From Qipengyuania flavescens (GTDB taxonomy: Bacteria > Pseudomonadota > Alphaproteobacteria > Sphingomonadales > Sphingomonadaceae), in NCBI RefSeq assembly GCF_029688735.1, contig NZ_JARULD010000001.1, positions 868,001 through 932,000 on the forward strand: a DNA stretch of 64,000 nucleotides, given 5' to 3'. The translations under genes were made by a program, and so were the position numbers. This document shows, one piece after another, positions 52,869-62,420 of the stretch. Under the pieces are notes generated by a model. That model worked only from the letters and a program-made list of their open reading frames with translations. It did no database searches and had not been told where the DNA came from. Numbering within the stretch: the first letter of the stretch is position 1; every line of letters starts with the position of its first letter.

Positions 52869-53597
52869 TTAATTGAAGAACCGCTGCTGGTAATAGAACG
52901 GCGCGGCCACCGGTTCGCCGTCGGCATCGGTCGCCGGGCGGAAACGCAGCTGTTCGACCACCAGGCGGCAGACCGCGGCATCGGTGTCGGGAAACGGACT
53001 TGAGCGGTAAACCGAGCAATTCGTCGCCCGGCCGCTCGGCAACACCGTCACCTTCACGATTACCGAGGTGCCGATGCGCGCCTCGCGCCCACCGGGCGGA
53101 ATGGGGAAATCGCGCGCCGAATTGAGCGCGCCAGAGATGATCTCCGGCTTCGTCACCGCGCCTCCGCCACGACCGGTCCCGCCATTGCCGCTGCCGGTGC
53201 CGAGCCCCGACCCTGCGGCGCCGGTGCCGTCGCCTGCGTCGGTCGCGCCGGAGGTGTCCGCAGTGCCGGTCGAGGCTGCACGCGGGGCGGGCCGGTCCTC
53301 GCGCAGCGGACGTTTCGGCGTGGGCGCGGTCACCGGTTTCGCCACCGCATCGCGCCCGGGGTCGCCCTGCTCGCCTTCCGGCTCCGGCTGCTGCACCTCC
53401 GGCTCTGACTCGGGCGGCGCCGTGACGGTGACAGTAAATGCGGAGACGACGCTTTCCTCCACGGTCGCGACCGCATTCGGCGCCAGACTACGTATGAGCA
53501 CGTAGAAGATGCCCAAATGAATCAGCACGATGGCGAGGATAACCCAGGGATTGGGCTTTCTTCTGATCCCTGCGTAGCGCGTCGCTTCGTTTGCCAT
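52869..53597 (-). CDS. tonB: TonB-family energy transducer
   Basis: The 242-residue protein has one N-terminal transmembrane helix (WVILAIVLIHLGIFYVLIRS), a long Pro/Glu-rich then Gly-rich linker, and a C-terminal TonB domain (ISGALNSARDFPIPPGGREA, VIVKVTVLPSGRATNCSVYR, VVEQLRFRPATDADGEPVAA). Two cysteines in the C-terminal domain (NCSVY and AVCRLV) are unusual for TonB and may pair. It would power the TonB receptors of this window. No exbB/exbD are adjacent. Confidence 0.85.
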   Translation of the reverse strand: MANEATRYAGIRRKPNPWVILAIVLIHLGIFYVLIRSLAPNAVATVEESVVSAFTVTVTAPPESEPEVQQPEPEGEQGDPGRDAVAKPVTAPTPKRPLREDRPAPRAASTGTADTSGATDAGDGTGAAGSGLGTGSGNGGTGRGGGAVTKPEIISGALNSARDFPIPPGGREARIGTSVIVKVTVLPSGRATNCSVYRSSPFPDTDAAVCRLVVEQLRFRPATDADGEPVAAPFYYQQRFFN

Positions 53598-56581: not shown

Positions 56582-59077
56582 TTAGTAGCCGAGGATCAGC
56601 GACACGCTGGCTGCACGCGGCGGCGACAGCTGCGCGAAACCGGCGCCGTCCAGATCGCCACCGAAGCCGCCGACGTAGAATTCGTCGAACAGGTTGGTGA
56701 CGTTGAACTGCAGCGCTGCATCGCGGCCGTTGAAGTATTCGCCGAGGCGGATGCGCGCGTCGAGATCGACCAGCGTGTAACCGCCGACCGACAGATCGTT
56801 CACATCGTTCACCCAGCGCTTGCCGGTGTGCTTGACCTGTACGCCGAGTTCGACCGGGCCGAAGGAGCCCTGCGCACGGCCGCCGACCGACCAGAGCGGG
56901 GTGCCGCTCTCGTTCTTGCCGGCAGTCGGTGCGAAGATCGGGTTGCCGTCATCGTCCAGGCCGAGCTGCACGTCGTTCTTGATTTCCGATTCGTTGATCG
57001 AACCGAACACATAGAGCAGCGTGTTGTTGGTCGGCTGGAACGCGACCGAGCCATCGATACCGTACTTGTCGACCTGGCCGAGGTTACGTGCGATCGATTC
57101 GTCGAGGATCGGATCGTAAGCCACGGCACGGCGGTTGCTGTACTTGGTGTACCAGCCGGCGATCTGGGCCTGAACACGGCCGTTCTGATACCGGAAGCCG
57201 AGGTCGAAGCTGTCGGTGGTTTCGGAATCCGGCTGGAAATCGTCGGTCTTGTTCGAGAAGAAGAGCGAGTCGTACAGCTCGTCCGTGCCCGGGACCGAGA
57301 GGCCCTTGGCATAGTTCCCGAAGATCGACGCATCGCCGAATTCGTACACGGCGCCCACGTTCGGAAGCAGCTTGTCGTACTTGTAAGTGACCGAGATCGG
57401 CGGTGCTGCATTCGGATTGGCTGCTTCGTAAGCAGCGGCATCCTGGTTTGCGAAGCAGTCGACGAAGCCCGAAGCACTAGTCGTGTAGCAGAGCTGGTTC
57501 AGCTCGCGCTTGAAGAACGGTGCGCGCAGGCCGAGCACGGTCGTCAAATTGCCGAAACGACCGCGATATTCGCCCGACACCTGATGCAGCGTCGCATAGG
57601 ACTGGCGGTTACGCTTGTTCAGTTCGAAACCGTCTGCCGTGAGGACCGGATCGTTGACCGGGAAGACGTCGACGATTTCACCGTCGATGCGAGCAATCGA
57701 GGTCTGACCGGTCTGACGGTGGTTCGCATCGTCATAGGTGTAGCTCAGGCGAACGCGGTGGTCGGCATTGATCTCGTACGCGAGGTTCGAGATGACGCCG
57801 AAACGGTGCGTACGGGTCTGGCTCGGGTCGAAACCGCTGATCTCGTCGAGCATGTCGCCGTCGCCGTTGAGGTCACGGCCGAAGTAGTAGCCGCCGCGCA
57901 GGAAGCCGGTGTACTGCTGGCCATTGTACTCGCGGGTACCTTCGAGCAGTTCCTCGTTACCGCCGCCGTTAGCCTTCACATACTGGTAGCTCGGATCGAT
58001 CGTCAGGATCAGGTCCGGGGTCAGGGTGAAGCGCGACGAACCGCGGATGTTGCCGGTGTTAGACGGGTTATAACGACGCTCGAACTCGGCACCGCAACCG
58101 TTGACACCGTCGGGATCGACATAGCCATCGACTGCAACCTGCGCCGGCGTTTCGAACACGCCCGGAACGCTGTCCACGGTGCAGGGGTAATTGATGTTGT
58201 AGAAGCGGAAGCTCTCGTCGCCCGCTTCAATCGCATCGATGATGTCGGTGACGAAGAACGAACCGAAGAAGTTGTTGCGGTTCTCGTTATAGTGACCGGC
58301 AACGGCAACGAAATCGCCATTGCTGCCGATGTCCTGCCAGATACGGCCGTTGTACTGTTGCTTTTCCACTTCGCCGTAATTGTTGAAGGGGTTGGCGTAG
58401 GTCGTGTAGCTGGCCGAAGCGAACGCCTTGGTGCCCATGCCGGTGATGTCGCCGGTGTCGATCATCACGAAGCCGCGACCGTAGAGGCGGTCGACACCGA
58501 TGTTGTCGCCTTCGGGGAAGGTGTCGCCAGCGGTCAGCGTCATGGTCACGCCGAATTCGTCGGCGGGTTCACGCGTACGGATGTTGATCGTGCCGCCGAC
58601 GGCCGAAGCGGTCGGGCTGTCGACATCGGTAACGCCGAGATTGACGTTGATCGATTCGAGAACTTCCGGGTCGACCTGCTGGTTCGTGTAAAGCGCGTAG
58701 TTGCCCGAATCGTTCAACGGCAGCCCGTCCAGCGTCTGCGAAATACGGCTGTCGTTGAAGCCGCGAATGGTGAAGCTACCGCCGGACGAACCCCATGGGT
58801 CGTTGTTCTGGAAGCTGACGCCGGGGACGAGGTTGACGATGTCGTTGACCGTCTGGCCGGGGCGCTGGCGACGAATGATTTCTTCGTTCAGCTCCTGCTT
58901 CGCCTTGGGCGTATCGGGGACTTCGATGCCACCGACGTCCTGATTGCGGGCGCCGGAAACGACGATCACATCGTCTTCGAATTCGACCGAACCGGTCGAC
59001 TGTGCGGCCGCCGGTGCGGCGACCATTGCGCTGGCGGTGCTGACTACGGAGGCAGCCAGGAGATACTTGAACTTCAT
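56582..59077 (-). CDS. TonB-dependent receptor, substrate unknown
   Basis: From ATG 59077 the 831-residue protein has a signal peptide (cut after VAAPAAAQ), a plug (QRPGQTVNDIVNLVPGVSFQ, then GSFTIRGFNDSRISQTLDGL and PTASAVGGTINIRTR), and a large beta barrel ending in VSLILGY. Two pairs of extracellular cysteines (NYPCTVDS with NGCGAEF, and CYTTSAS with VDCFAN) may close loops. It is not of the siderophore type by plug sequence. It follows the oxygenase and nupC genes on the same strand, which hints at a nucleoside-like or aromatic ligand. Confidence 0.88.
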   Translation of the reverse strand: MKFKYLLAASVVSTASAMVAAPAAAQSTGSVEFEDDVIVVSGARNQDVGGIEVPDTPKAKQELNEEIIRRQRPGQTVNDIVNLVPGVSFQNNDPWGSSGGSFTIRGFNDSRISQTLDGLPLNDSGNYALYTNQQVDPEVLESINVNLGVTDVDSPTASAVGGTINIRTREPADEFGVTMTLTAGDTFPEGDNIGVDRLYGRGFVMIDTGDITGMGTKAFASASYTTYANPFNNYGEVEKQQYNGRIWQDIGSNGDFVAVAGHYNENRNNFFGSFFVTDIIDAIEAGDESFRFYNINYPCTVDSVPGVFETPAQVAVDGYVDPDGVNGCGAEFERRYNPSNTGNIRGSSRFTLTPDLILTIDPSYQYVKANGGGNEELLEGTREYNGQQYTGFLRGGYYFGRDLNGDGDMLDEISGFDPSQTRTHRFGVISNLAYEINADHRVRLSYTYDDANHRQTGQTSIARIDGEIVDVFPVNDPVLTADGFELNKRNRQSYATLHQVSGEYRGRFGNLTTVLGLRAPFFKRELNQLCYTTSASGFVDCFANQDAAAYEAANPNAAPPISVTYKYDKLLPNVGAVYEFGDASIFGNYAKGLSVPGTDELYDSLFFSNKTDDFQPDSETTDSFDLGFRYQNGRVQAQIAGWYTKYSNRRAVAYDPILDESIARNLGQVDKYGIDGSVAFQPTNNTLLYVFGSINESEIKNDVQLGLDDDGNPIFAPTAGKNESGTPLWSVGGRAQGSFGPVELGVQVKHTGKRWVNDVNDLSVGGYTLVDLDARIRLGEYFNGRDAALQFNVTNLFDEFYVGGFGGDLDGAGFAQLSPPRAASVSLILGY

Positions 59078-59313
59078 GTCAGGAGACCCCTTAAGTGTCC
59101 AAATCAAAACTGTGCTCGAGAGAAGCGGAGCCCGGCTAGTCCGGGTTGATTGCCGCAAAGCGTTGGTTTTGTGACAGAGTCAAGACAGTGGTGGCCGCGC
59201 GGTTACGCTGCACTTGCGAACGACAGAAAATGCATGCCTTATCAGAGACTTCGCTGTGTTGCGCAAATGCAACGCCGCGTGAATTTTATTGCCTTGCCGC
59301 AGTGCAGCATCGA

Positions 59314-60255
59314 TCAGGCTAGGTTGATCTCGCGCAACCGCTGCATGAGGTAGTCGTGGCTGGATATCGCTTCCGGGTGATCGTCCGGGCGCGCCGGATC
59401 AATGCATTGCGGCAGGGTTTCAATCACATAGTCCGGCCGGAAATGCAGGAAGAAAGGCATCGAATAGCGCGCCCGATAGGCCGCTTCTCCACGCGGGTTG
59501 ACGACCCGGTGAGTCGTCGAGCGTAGCCGGCCGTTGGTCAGCCGGTCGAGCATGTCGCCGATATTCACGACCAGCGCCCCTTCGGGCGGCGCGACGGCTT
59601 TCCACTCGCCCTGTGCGGTCAGCAGCTCCAGCCCGGCCTCTTCGGCGCCCAGCAGCAGCGTGATCGTGTTGATATCGCCATGGGCCGCCGCGCGAATCGC
59701 GCCTTCCGCTTCCTCGCCCTCCAGCGGCGGATAGCGAAGCAGGCGCATCACCGAATTGCCGTCCTCTACCGTGGCCGCGAAAAAGTCGCGGTCCAGCCCG
59801 AGATGCAGGGCAATGCCTTGCAGCACTCGCGCGCCCGCTTCCTCGAAAGCGGTATAAAGCTCGGTGAAGGTATCACGGAAGCCGCCGACTTCGTCGGGCC
59901 AGACGTTGTCGGCCATATATTCCGCCAGCGCGTGCCCCTCCGGCAGTTCGCGACCGACGTGCCAGAATTCCTTGAGGTCGTGGACCTCGGCATCCTTGGC
60001 CTTTTCCGTGCCGAAGGGCGTATAGCCGCGGGCACCGCCGCCGCCGGGGATGTGGTAGGCGCGCTTCACATCATCGGGCAGCGCGAAGAATTCCTTCGAC
60101 AGGGCCTCGGCCCGGTCGATCAGCTCCTGCGGGATGCCGTGGTCGCGGATGACGGCAAAGCCGTATTCCTCGAAGCTGCGGCCCAGCTCGTCGGCAATGC
60201 TTTCGATCGGCTGTGCCAGGGACACAACCGCGATGTCGGTGTTCGATTCGCTCAT
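59314..60255 (-). CDS. Isopenicillin-N-synthase-like Fe(II) oxygenase
   Basis: The 313-residue protein has the non-haem oxygenase fold with an N-terminal domain (FEEYGFAVIRDHGIPQELID) and the iron ligands His192 and Asp194 (AAHGDINTITLL) and His249 (RSTTHRVVNP). Arg263 and Ser265 (RARYSMPFF) bind the 2-oxoglutarate carboxylate as in 2OG-dependent members. It is unlikely to make penicillin since no ACV synthetase is near. It lies 10 bases after nupC and ahead of a TonB receptor, suggesting oxidation of an imported nucleoside or base. Confidence 0.88.
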   Translation of the reverse strand: MSESNTDIAVVSLAQPIESIADELGRSFEEYGFAVIRDHGIPQELIDRAEALSKEFFALPDDVKRAYHIPGGGGARGYTPFGTEKAKDAEVHDLKEFWHVGRELPEGHALAEYMADNVWPDEVGGFRDTFTELYTAFEEAGARVLQGIALHLGLDRDFFAATVEDGNSVMRLLRYPPLEGEEAEGAIRAAAHGDINTITLLLGAEEAGLELLTAQGEWKAVAPPEGALVVNIGDMLDRLTNGRLRSTTHRVVNPRGEAAYRARYSMPFFLHFRPDYVIETLPQCIDPARPDDHPEAISSHDYLMQRLREINLA

Positions 60256-60265
60256 GACGCGCTCT

Positions 60266-61594
60266 CTAATACGGCAGGAAGAGTCCCGCCAGCGCCGCGC
60301 TCATCAGATTGGCGAGGCTGCCGGCAGCCAGCGCGCGCAGGCCGAGCTTGGCGATGACCGGCCGCTGGTTGGGGGCAAGCCCGCCGGTGACCGCCATCTG
60401 GATCGCGATCGAGCTGAAATTGGCAAAGCCGCACAGCGCGAAGGTCGCAATCGCGCGGCTGCGGTCCGACAGCACGGTCGCATCCATTGCGCCGAGTTCG
60501 ATGAAGGCGACGAATTCGTTGAGGACGATCTTCGTGCCGAACAGTCCGCCCGCTGCCCCCGCCTGCTCCCAGGGGATGCCGATCAGGAACATCACCGGCG
60601 CAAAGATGAAGCCGAGCAACTGCTGGAAACTGACATCCGGATAGCCGAACCAACCGCCGATCCCGCCGAGAATGCCGTTGGCCAGCGCGACCAGCGCGAC
60701 GAAGACCATGACCATCGCGCCCACCGCCACGGCGAGCTTCACGCCGGTCTGCGTGCCTTGCGCGGCGGCTTCGATCACATTGGCGGGCTTGTGCCCTTCC
60801 TCGAACGTCTCGGCGACTTCGACTTCGTGCGGCTTGCCGCTCTCGGTCAGGGCAGCCGGCCCTTCGGCGCTGATACGCGTGGTCGGCAGCTGGACCTCGG
60901 CCAGTTCCGCGGCATTGCGGGCGAGATCGCTCTCGTCGTCCGGCATGATGATCTTCGCCATCAGGATGCCGCCCGGTGCCGACATGAAGGCGGCTGCCAG
61001 CAGGAACGGCACAGCCTCCGCGCCGATAAAGCTGGCATAGGCGGCGAGGATCGTGCCAGCGACCCCGGCCATGCCGACTGCCATCAGCGTGAACAGGCGG
61101 CTGGGTGTAAGCGCGGCAAGATAGGGCCGCACCACCAGTGGGCTTTCCGACTGGCCGACGAAGATGTTCGCTGCGCTGCCCAGCGCCTCGACCTTGCTGA
61201 TCCCGGTGATCCAGCCGATCGCGCCGCCCACCCAGCGCACCAGCCGCTGCATGATGCCCCAGTGGTAGAGGATGGAGACCAGCGCGGCGAAGAAGATTAT
61301 CACCGGCAGCGCCGCAATCACGAAGGTGTTGGCGAAGGGGTTCCCCTCCATCGGACCGAAGATCGCGGTGATTCCTGCCTTGGAATAGTCGAGCAGCGCG
61401 ATCACGCCGTTGGACATCGCCTGGATCGCCTCGACGCCCCAGGGCGTGCGCAACACCAGCAGCGCCATGAGCGCCTGCAAGGCAAAGGCCGCGCCGACGA
61501 CGCGCAGCTTGATCCGGCGCTTGCCGGTCGACAGGAGGAAAGCGATCGCCAGGATCGCGAGGATACCGGCGATATTGATCAGGATGGGCTGCAC
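60266..61594 (-). CDS. NupC-type concentrative nucleoside transporter
   Basis: The 442-residue protein has about nine to ten transmembrane segments and the CNT core: GNPFANTFVIAALPVIIFFA, EALGSAANIFVGQSESPLVV (the first binding loop), GGILMAKIIMPDDES and NEFVAFIELGAMDATVLSDR, FALCGFANFSSIAIQMAVTG. It takes up nucleosides with H+ or Na+. It has an extra loop of about 45 residues after the KIIMPDDES stretch. The oxygenase gene follows after 10 bases. Confidence 0.92.
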   Translation of the reverse strand: MQPILINIAGILAILAIAFLLSTGKRRIKLRVVGAAFALQALMALLVLRTPWGVEAIQAMSNGVIALLDYSKAGITAIFGPMEGNPFANTFVIAALPVIIFFAALVSILYHWGIMQRLVRWVGGAIGWITGISKVEALGSAANIFVGQSESPLVVRPYLAALTPSRLFTLMAVGMAGVAGTILAAYASFIGAEAVPFLLAAAFMSAPGGILMAKIIMPDDESDLARNAAELAEVQLPTTRISAEGPAALTESGKPHEVEVAETFEEGHKPANVIEAAAQGTQTGVKLAVAVGAMVMVFVALVALANGILGGIGGWFGYPDVSFQQLLGFIFAPVMFLIGIPWEQAGAAGGLFGTKIVLNEFVAFIELGAMDATVLSDRSRAIATFALCGFANFSSIAIQMAVTGGLAPNQRPVIAKLGLRALAAGSLANLMSAALAGLFLPY

Positions 61595-61730
61595 TGCGGA
61601 CCCCTCTCGCGATGCGACGAATTGCGGATGAAATCGGCCGCTACCTTGCGCGGCGGGTCCGCTTAGTCAATTTTCGCATTCCAAGCCAGCATTCGCTGTC
61701 ACCCGATTTTCAAGGATGATTTTCCCCCGC

Positions 61731-62420
61731 ATGACCGACCAGCCTGCCCATCAGGAACGCGTAGCCGCCGCCTCGATCCCGCTCGGCCTGTTCGTCTATC
61801 TCGTGCTTTACGGCGGGCTGACGGTGATCGCCGGCGTCCTCGCCTTCAAGCAGGTGCAGCTGTGGCCGACCCAGCTGGCAGTGGAATCGGGCATCTTCGC
61901 CTTCCTCGGGCTGGTCGTGATCTCCAGCACGATCGCCCAGCTTTATGGCGAGAAACTCGCGCGCAAGCTGGTGTGGTGGGGCTTCCTGCCGCTGGCGGTG
62001 TCCGCGCTACTGATTTTCCTCGTCCTGTCGCTACCCGCTTCCCCCGACATGGTCGACTATCGCGGCGCGGACCTCGATGCGTTCAACACCGTGCTGGCGC
62101 AGACGCCGCGGATCATGGCGGCCGGGCCTGCCGCCTATATCGTCTCGCTGCTGCTCAATGTCTGGATCTTCTCGCGCCTGCGCGGTTCGGGCGAGGATAA
62201 TACGATCGGGCTGATGGTCCGCGGCGCGATCGCCAGTGCGCTCAGCCAGGCGATCGATTCGGTCATCTTCGTGACGCTCGCCTTCTATGGCGAGTTCGAC
62301 ATCACGCCGCTGCTGATCGGGCAGGTAATCGCCAAGGTAACCCTCAGCATCGTGCTAGTGCCGTTCCTGATTACCGGCGGCGTCGCGTTGGCCCGCCGAC
62401 TGGACAAGCGCAGCTTCTAG
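61731..62420 (+). CDS. Queuosine-precursor transporter family protein (YhhQ/VUT-like)
   Basis: The 229-residue protein has about six hydrophobic helices and the YhhQ pattern: LVVISSTIAQLYGEKLARKL, AAYIVSLLLNVWIFSRLRG and IASALSQAIDSVIFVTLAFY (the conserved Q-x-x-D/S in the fifth helix). YhhQ proteins bring in preQ0/preQ1 for tRNA modification. The start ATG 61731 is chosen over 61716 by comparison with the family length. No preQ1 riboswitch is seen upstream. It converges on the DUF421 gene. Confidence 0.8.
   Translation: MTDQPAHQERVAAASIPLGLFVYLVLYGGLTVIAGVLAFKQVQLWPTQLAVESGIFAFLGLVVISSTIAQLYGEKLARKLVWWGFLPLAVSALLIFLVLSLPASPDMVDYRGADLDAFNTVLAQTPRIMAAGPAAYIVSLLLNVWIFSRLRGSGEDNTIGLMVRGAIASALSQAIDSVIFVTLAFYGEFDITPLLIGQVIAKVTLSIVLVPFLITGGVALARRLDKRSF

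Follow-up and report, generated by a model that had tools for sequence, protein, structure and literature searches.

Thymine-7-hydroxylase, a fungal 2-oxoglutarate (2OG)/Fe(II) oxygenase, oxidises thymine to 5-hydroxymethyl-, 5-formyl- and 5-carboxyuracil; iso-orotate decarboxylase follows it in the fungal route. Fungal and animal 2OG oxygenases are described whose substrates are free nucleosides or bases; from bacteria, PMC12709175 reports one family, which differs from the enzyme considered here. It describes PHYHD1/FJS, 2OG/Fe(II) oxygenases with bacterial members that demethylate free 2'-O-methyl nucleosides, and names a pyrimidine nucleoside 2'-hydroxylase from Neurospora, a 2OG oxygenase acting on free nucleosides. 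A closer relative of our enzyme is CC_0200 of Caulobacter crescentus, the structure of which was solved in 2010 and titled putative 2OG-Fe(II) oxygenase (3oox); in a literature search for 3OOX/CC0200 no function was found among the matches listed, all of which were unrelated. Here we describe a locus of Qipengyuania flavescens (assembly GCF_029688735.1, contig NZ_JARULD010000001.1, positions 868,001 to 932,000 of the forward strand; genome size 2.98 Mb) in which such an oxygenase gene lies between genes for a nucleoside transporter, nupC, and a TonB-dependent receptor. The whole 64,000 nt stretch is referred to as the window, and coordinates are those of the window. No description of this gene set or of the chemistry proposed below was found in the titles and abstract openings of the matches listed from the open-licence literature.

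We read the locus as a nucleoside-scavenging unit in which the oxygenase would convert a non-standard nucleoside or base, and we give this reading a probability of roughly 55%. The oxygenase is linked to nucleosides because of its conserved neighbourhoods, its nucleoside-type partners in another bacterial class and its structure, and on the basis of neighbourhoods and predicted structure a role in nucleoside salvage is likely. The three genes run in one direction on the minus strand, with 10 bases between nupC and the oxygenase gene and 230 bases between the latter and the receptor gene; coordinates and Pfam domains here confirm the arrangement given in a preliminary description of the locus. 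The features are the following:

60266-61594, minus strand: nupC, concentrative nucleoside transporter (CNT), 442 aa, GTG start
59314-60255, minus strand: 2OG/Fe(II) oxygenase of the IPNS-like group, near Caulobacter CC_0200 (3oox), 313 aa, ATG start
59258-59273, no strand assigned: candidate operator GTTGC-N6-GCAAC in the gap between oxygenase and receptor genes
56582-59083, minus strand: TonB-dependent receptor, the last of the three genes, 833 aa when read from the ATG at 59083
61716-62420, plus strand: queuosine-precursor transporter, divergent and adjoining nupC (TIGR00697 85.6 bits, cut-off 50.95; PF02592)

To assess conservation, we used the 80 loci with the closest oxygenases, the best 80 of a longer scan (L032-L111); genes in the loci of relatives were called with a simple ORF caller. 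In 78 of the 80, nupC is located upstream of the oxygenase gene on the same strand, at a distance of up to 165 bases in 76 of these, and the divergent queuosine-precursor transporter is found upstream in 76 loci. A TonB receptor gene starts within 1 kb downstream in 74 loci, 18 of them encoding the type present in the window and 56 an Oar-like receptor with a CarboxypepD_reg domain (the domains of each type were assigned from one example). The trio, whose conservation the preliminary description had named as a check, is thus retained as far as nupC and the presence of a receptor are concerned, but the receptor slot is shared by two types; since these replace each other there, it seems that a receptor is wanted in that position.

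Within the family of the window, the oxygenase was detected in 181 of 199 genomes (173 of the 187 good ones) and nupC in 146. Both genes occur in 144 genomes, the oxygenase alone in 37, nupC alone in 2 and neither in 16, which gives an odds ratio of 31 for a table counted by hand, the significance of which is not to be relied on since the genomes are related. Places of the oxygenase gene were listed for 150 cases from the 181 matching genomes and compared with the NupC places listed, split NupC pieces being merged by hand; nupC was located within 3 kb in 79 of them, an adjacency that exceeds chance. Sorted by identity, the two genes are adjacent in 58 of 60 places at 70% or more and in 21 of 90 below 70%. 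At the level of the class, 16 of 289 genomes contain the oxygenase at 1e-60, four of them from the window's own family, and relatives on plasmids (85 records) are all below 60% identity.

The genes surrounding the pair were compared in 160 loci, six of which were shorter than 11 kb and were set aside; receptors were searched for as the types present at linked loci, those with nupC and oxygenase together. Relatives studied in detail were selected from the matches by hand and not at random. At divergent linked loci a frequent gene order is transporter, PfkB-type kinase, LOG-type gene, nupC, oxygenase, cytidine deaminase, 5'-nucleotidase and AMP nucleosidase; at some of these loci an S1/P1 nuclease and a receptor are also close by. 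The 23 linked loci below 70% identity contain LOG in 13 cases, cytidine deaminase in 12, PfkB kinase in 10, AMP nucleosidase in 8, 5'-nucleotidase in 5, S1/P1 nuclease in 3 and uridine kinase in 2, together with the transporter in 20 and either receptor type in 15. The transporter is present at 73 and a receptor at 69 (18 + 51) of the 74 closer linked loci. At the 19 loci with nupC only, the transporter was found 14 times, the kinase and the S1/P1 nuclease once each, and none of the remaining families or receptors. The family names of the scavenging genes were taken from one example each. In scans of these examples, AMP nucleosidase (747 bits) and cytidine deaminase (PRK05578) exceeded their NCBIfam cut-offs, and S1-P1 nuclease, 5_nucleotid_C and PfkB those of Pfam; the LOG protein scored over TIGR00730 and under the cytokinin-LOG cut-off, and the kinase and the 5'-nucleotidase remained under every specific NCBIfam cut-off.

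Partners of a nucleoside type are also found in another class, a computed kinship label that we take to stand for Gammaproteobacteria. At phylum level, the oxygenase is present in 47 of 398 genomes at 1e-55. One family outside the window's class has it in 28 of 147 genomes, 16 of which encode a NupC directly upstream (42-48% identical to the window NupC). Seven of the 16 (L256-L262) were examined over a wider region, and in these a uridine kinase gene precedes nupC and an Oar-like receptor gene is near, on the opposite strand in L261; the neighbourhood of L256 also includes genes for purine nucleoside phosphorylase, xanthine phosphoribosyltransferase and an Exo_endo_phos protein, and L200, of the same family, has receptor, uridine kinase, NupC, oxygenase and an Exo_endo_phos gene. 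Directly downstream of the oxygenase, 8 of the 28 carry a 5'-nucleotidase-like gene, the domain of which was confirmed in L246 (nadN 400 bits, cut-off 436). In one genome (L244) the genes immediately before the oxygenase encode a Bmp (PnrA-like) binding protein, an ATPase and two permeases; for the binding protein and the permeases, vitamin B6 transporters are the closest NCBIfam names, at scores far below cut-off. Three of the 28 have the oxygenase without a NupC, 5'-nucleotidase or PnrA-like partner.

A quick tree of the oxygenase, which cannot separate gain from loss, was built from 91 of 166 rows, those at least 82% alike or shorter than 240 aa having been dropped. In this tree, both NupC-linked rows of the other class belong to a starred clade of 12 rows, none of them a linked row of the window's class, and there they group with three unlinked rows (support 81). 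The linked label requires eight changes on this tree, at least five of them forced by starred branches. The simplest reading is that the pairing of nupC and oxygenase arose more than once; alternatively, a single old pairing might have been lost many times. Whichever history holds, the oxygenase is repeatedly found with partners of a nucleoside type.

Two further observations concern these neighbourhoods. A thioesterase-like gene overlaps the 3' end of the oxygenase gene at 10762-11346 in L253 (4HBT_2) and at 10227-10769 in L255 (assigned by its similar sequence start), and in both genomes neither NupC nor a 5'-nucleotidase is encoded next to the oxygenase. In several families of the other class, the oxygenase has genes named by eye as tpiA-like next to it or in its vicinity (L193, L194, L198, L199, L201 and L214-L216).

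By its sequence, the NupC of the window clearly belongs to the CNT superfamily and narrowly misses the curated nupC label: PF07662 (Nucleos_tra2_C, 251.4 bits), PF01773 (Nucleos_tra2_N, 76.2 bits) and PF07670 (Gate, 55.1 bits) are all above cut-off, and TIGR00804 (NupC/NupG subfamily) is matched with 417 bits, below its curated cut-off of 442. The best solved relatives are the NupC-family chains 4pb1 and 3tij, of the vcCNT type, with matches spanning almost the full length. Of the six uridine-contacting residues of vcCNT, Q154, T155, E156, E332, N368 and S371, five are kept in the alignment to the solved chains, with Ser in place of T155. Length of match and uridine contacts liken the protein to vcCNT, whereas the exchange of Thr155 and the subfamily score set it apart.

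The oxygenase contains PF14226 (94.2 bits, cut-off 27.3) and PF03171 (72.8 bits, cut-off 23), which were the sole matches in a Pfam scan at E 0.001; no NCBIfam family was matched. The HxD...H metal triad and the RxS motif for 2OG are intact (H192, D194, H249, R263 and S265), and these residues are at least 97% conserved in 166 rows and invariant in 20 diverse members. In a phmmer comparison 3oox was matched at 6e-105, and this structure is also the top match of the predicted model (pLDDT 91.4; Z 40.6, 54% identity over 298 residues) and has the same subfamily motifs. The nearest enzyme of known function by structure is the fungal thymine-7-hydroxylase (Z 36.1, rmsd 2.3, 295 residues aligned, 30% identity), followed by the next family at Z 33.6, 2.5 lower, and by IPNS structures at Z ~32. 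Foldseek gave the same ranking, 3oox and then thymine-7-hydroxylase.

From this ranking it might be argued that the oxygenase is a bacterial thymine-7-hydroxylase oxidising the methyl group of thymine, yet a common fold, here that of a model, does not show function. PMC4787775 names H214, D216, H271, Y194, R286, S288 and R190 as metal, 2OG and active-site residues of the Neurospora enzyme, and Y217, N87, E122, N294 and the stacking F292 as base contacts. On a phmmer alignment, with positions counted by hand, the first group is kept entirely (H192, D194, H249, Y175, R263, S265 and R171 in the window enzyme), and among the base contacts F292 alone is kept (F269): Y217, N87, E122 and N294 correspond to I195, A75, H99 and H271. 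H99, I195 and H271 are invariant in the 20 diverse members, as are N196 and F269. With four of the five base-contacting residues given in that source replaced, we rejected membership in the thymine-7-hydroxylase family, and consider a thymine-oxidising activity of this kind very improbable.

In the scheme that we favour, the receptor would carry a product of nucleic-acid breakdown across the outer membrane, and NupC, going by its family, would import nucleosides into the cytosol. There the oxygenase would use Fe(II), O2 and 2OG to oxidise a nucleoside or base that is not, in its existing form, open to the ordinary enzymes of salvage, and kinases, deaminases and nucleosidases would then process its product. 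By analogy we favour a reaction in which a modified nucleoside set free from RNA would be hydroxylated or oxidatively demethylated, because PHYHD1/FJS enzymes demethylate free 2'-O-methyl nucleosides, according to PMC12709175. The preliminary description had proposed a nucleoside oxidation pathway from outer membrane through inner membrane to cytosol. This layout is plausible from the protein families, and the nucleoside link is supported by neighbourhoods, partners in the other class and structure; as for the oxidation itself, we infer the substrate class, the chemistry, the direction of flow and the cargo of the receptor.

It might also be possible that the oxygenase hydroxylates the sugar (2' or 1' carbon) of canonical deoxynucleosides derived from DNA, so that ribonucleosides or free bases would be formed, much as the pyrimidine nucleoside 2'-hydroxylase of fungi acts. 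According to PMC12709175, fungi have a 2OG enzyme of such an activity, and nuclease, 5'-nucleotidase, uridine kinase and cytidine deaminase genes among the neighbours would suit it. However, partners of the purine type (AMP nucleosidase, PfkB kinase, LOG, purine nucleoside phosphorylase) occur as often as those of the pyrimidine type, and we regard this chemistry as improbable.

Several observations weigh against a scavenging unit. The window's own genome has an S1/P1 nuclease and an AMP nucleosidase that are unlinked to the trio, and scavenging genes are rare at the 74 closer linked loci (cytidine deaminase 7, AMP nucleosidase 6, S1/P1 nuclease 6, 5'-nucleotidase 3; kinase, LOG and uridine kinase all 0). 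The 38 loci with the oxygenase only are nearly devoid of them, having LOG twice, the transporter once, and none of the rest or of either receptor type. At most unlinked loci of the window's class the neighbours have no link to nucleosides, and in the other class the oxygenase is located near glmM- and tpiA-like genes in the families f184 and f205, presumably xanthomonads, and beside a tpiA-like gene in f213 (all named by eye). The stacking Phe and the active-site Arg also occur in 9ovh and 6jyv, and are therefore not diagnostic of base-oxidising enzymes. The preliminary description had named separation of oxygenase and nupC in relatives as a result that would refute a joint pathway; such separation is found in part, mostly below 70% identity and thus in distant relatives. 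Among the 150 places listed, nupC is on a different contig in 29, of which at least G037 may be no more than a contig break; it is distant on the same contig in 15, and for 27 places no nupC was listed.

These observations could be explained if the oxygenase had a housekeeping role on an unrelated metabolite, its adjacency to nupC being an inherited gene order without joint function. The near-universal presence of the oxygenase in the family, 37 of the 181 genomes lacking nupC, is in line with this, as are the absence of scavenging genes where the oxygenase stands alone and its position in other families among genes without a nucleoside link. Against it stand the separate cases in the other class in which the oxygenase is paired with NupC, with a 5'-nucleotidase or with a PnrA-like importer, and the concentration of scavenging genes at divergent linked loci. 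We consider the housekeeping explanation rather unlikely and prefer the nucleoside-scavenging unit.

The queuosine-precursor transporter stands beside the nupC-oxygenase pair at 73 of 74 and 20 of 23 linked loci, and a cluster with a QueF-like scanned member lies near the oxygenase at six unlinked loci, so that the oxygenase might act on a queuosine intermediate in queuosine-precursor salvage. The transporter stays with nupC when the oxygenase is elsewhere (14/19), however, and is nearly absent where the oxygenase is alone (1/38). Because it tracks nupC and not the oxygenase, a role in queuosine salvage was set aside as highly improbable. The transporter and nupC form a conserved divergent pair, kept in 14 of the 19 loci that have the oxygenase elsewhere, so that bases and nucleosides derived from RNA may be salvaged together.

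The receptor contains a beta-barrel domain (PF00593, 98.7 bits, cut-off 27) and a plug domain (PF07715, 55.2 bits, cut-off 23.9), and no specific receptor family of NCBIfam was matched above its cut-off. Its mechanically called ORF begins with a TTG further upstream (59158); translation probably starts at the ATG at 59083, homologues having similar beginnings. The receptor gene may be a separate transcription unit, as the 230-base gap holds a conserved palindrome. The motif GTTGC-N6-GCAAC occurs within 330 bases after the oxygenase gene in 53 of the 80 loci, without further copies in the 1.54 Mb of those loci, and is absent from all 1292 control windows (0/1292). It was found in 42 of 56 loci in which an Oar-like receptor gene follows, in 10 of 18 with the window type and in one of six in which no receptor was found. 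This distribution makes the palindrome a specific candidate operator. The window's own genome contains five sites, compared with one for a reversed control pattern; of the other four, one is at the beginning of a clpB-like gene that faces an acyl-CoA-dehydrogenase-like gene (names of both assigned by eye), one precedes a mechanosensitive-channel gene by 20 bases and two are within predicted ORFs. We had considered the palindrome as a marker of a nucleoside regulon and rejected this, no such regulon being seen among these four sites.

About 3 kb beyond the receptor gene lies a TonB-type gene (TonB_C; 52869-53597, minus strand), the cluster of which is found in 41 of the 80 related loci; its product may energise the receptor. 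In alphaproteobacterial genomes in which no nupC is linked, other TonB receptors are encoded immediately after the oxygenase (L121, 6761-9370; L123, 6671-9265; L210, 5250-7952), and in L121 and L122, both small genomes, the oxygenase is preceded by a DUF3108-type gene (domain scanned in L121).

A wider proposal, which we put forward tentatively and hold to be rather unlikely, is that the oxygenase represents a bacterial family of its own among the 2OG oxygenases that act on nucleosides, separate from PHYHD1/FJS and from thymine-7-hydroxylase, which would have been recruited in two classes to different uptake systems (CNT, PnrA-like ABC importer, 5'-nucleotidase). Such a family would launder modified nucleosides, whether the RNA they come from is scavenged or recycled, into usable ones, and a TonB receptor dedicated to the task would pass nucleosides or oligonucleotides through the outer membrane. 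If true, it would be a second bacterial family of 2OG oxygenases for free nucleosides or bases, found in 181 of 199 genomes of one family; it would help to explain how cells handle modified nucleosides and would point to the class of ligand for two TonB receptor types.

Compared with the described systems, the window enzyme resembles the Neurospora thymine-7-hydroxylase (5c3p to 5c3s) in its fold, its metal and 2OG residues and the equivalents of Arg190 and Phe292, but differs in sequence and in the other base contacts named in PMC4787775, the Neurospora protein being a fungal enzyme for the free base. PHYHD1/FJS belong to PF05721 according to PMC12709175, whereas the window enzyme has PF14226 and PF03171 and no PF05721 match; the likeness to the Neurospora pyrimidine nucleoside 2'-hydroxylase would lie in the activity named there. 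The interpretation as a nucleoside pathway is partly supported, and relative to the known nucleoside and nucleobase 2OG oxygenases the system would be new as a variant.

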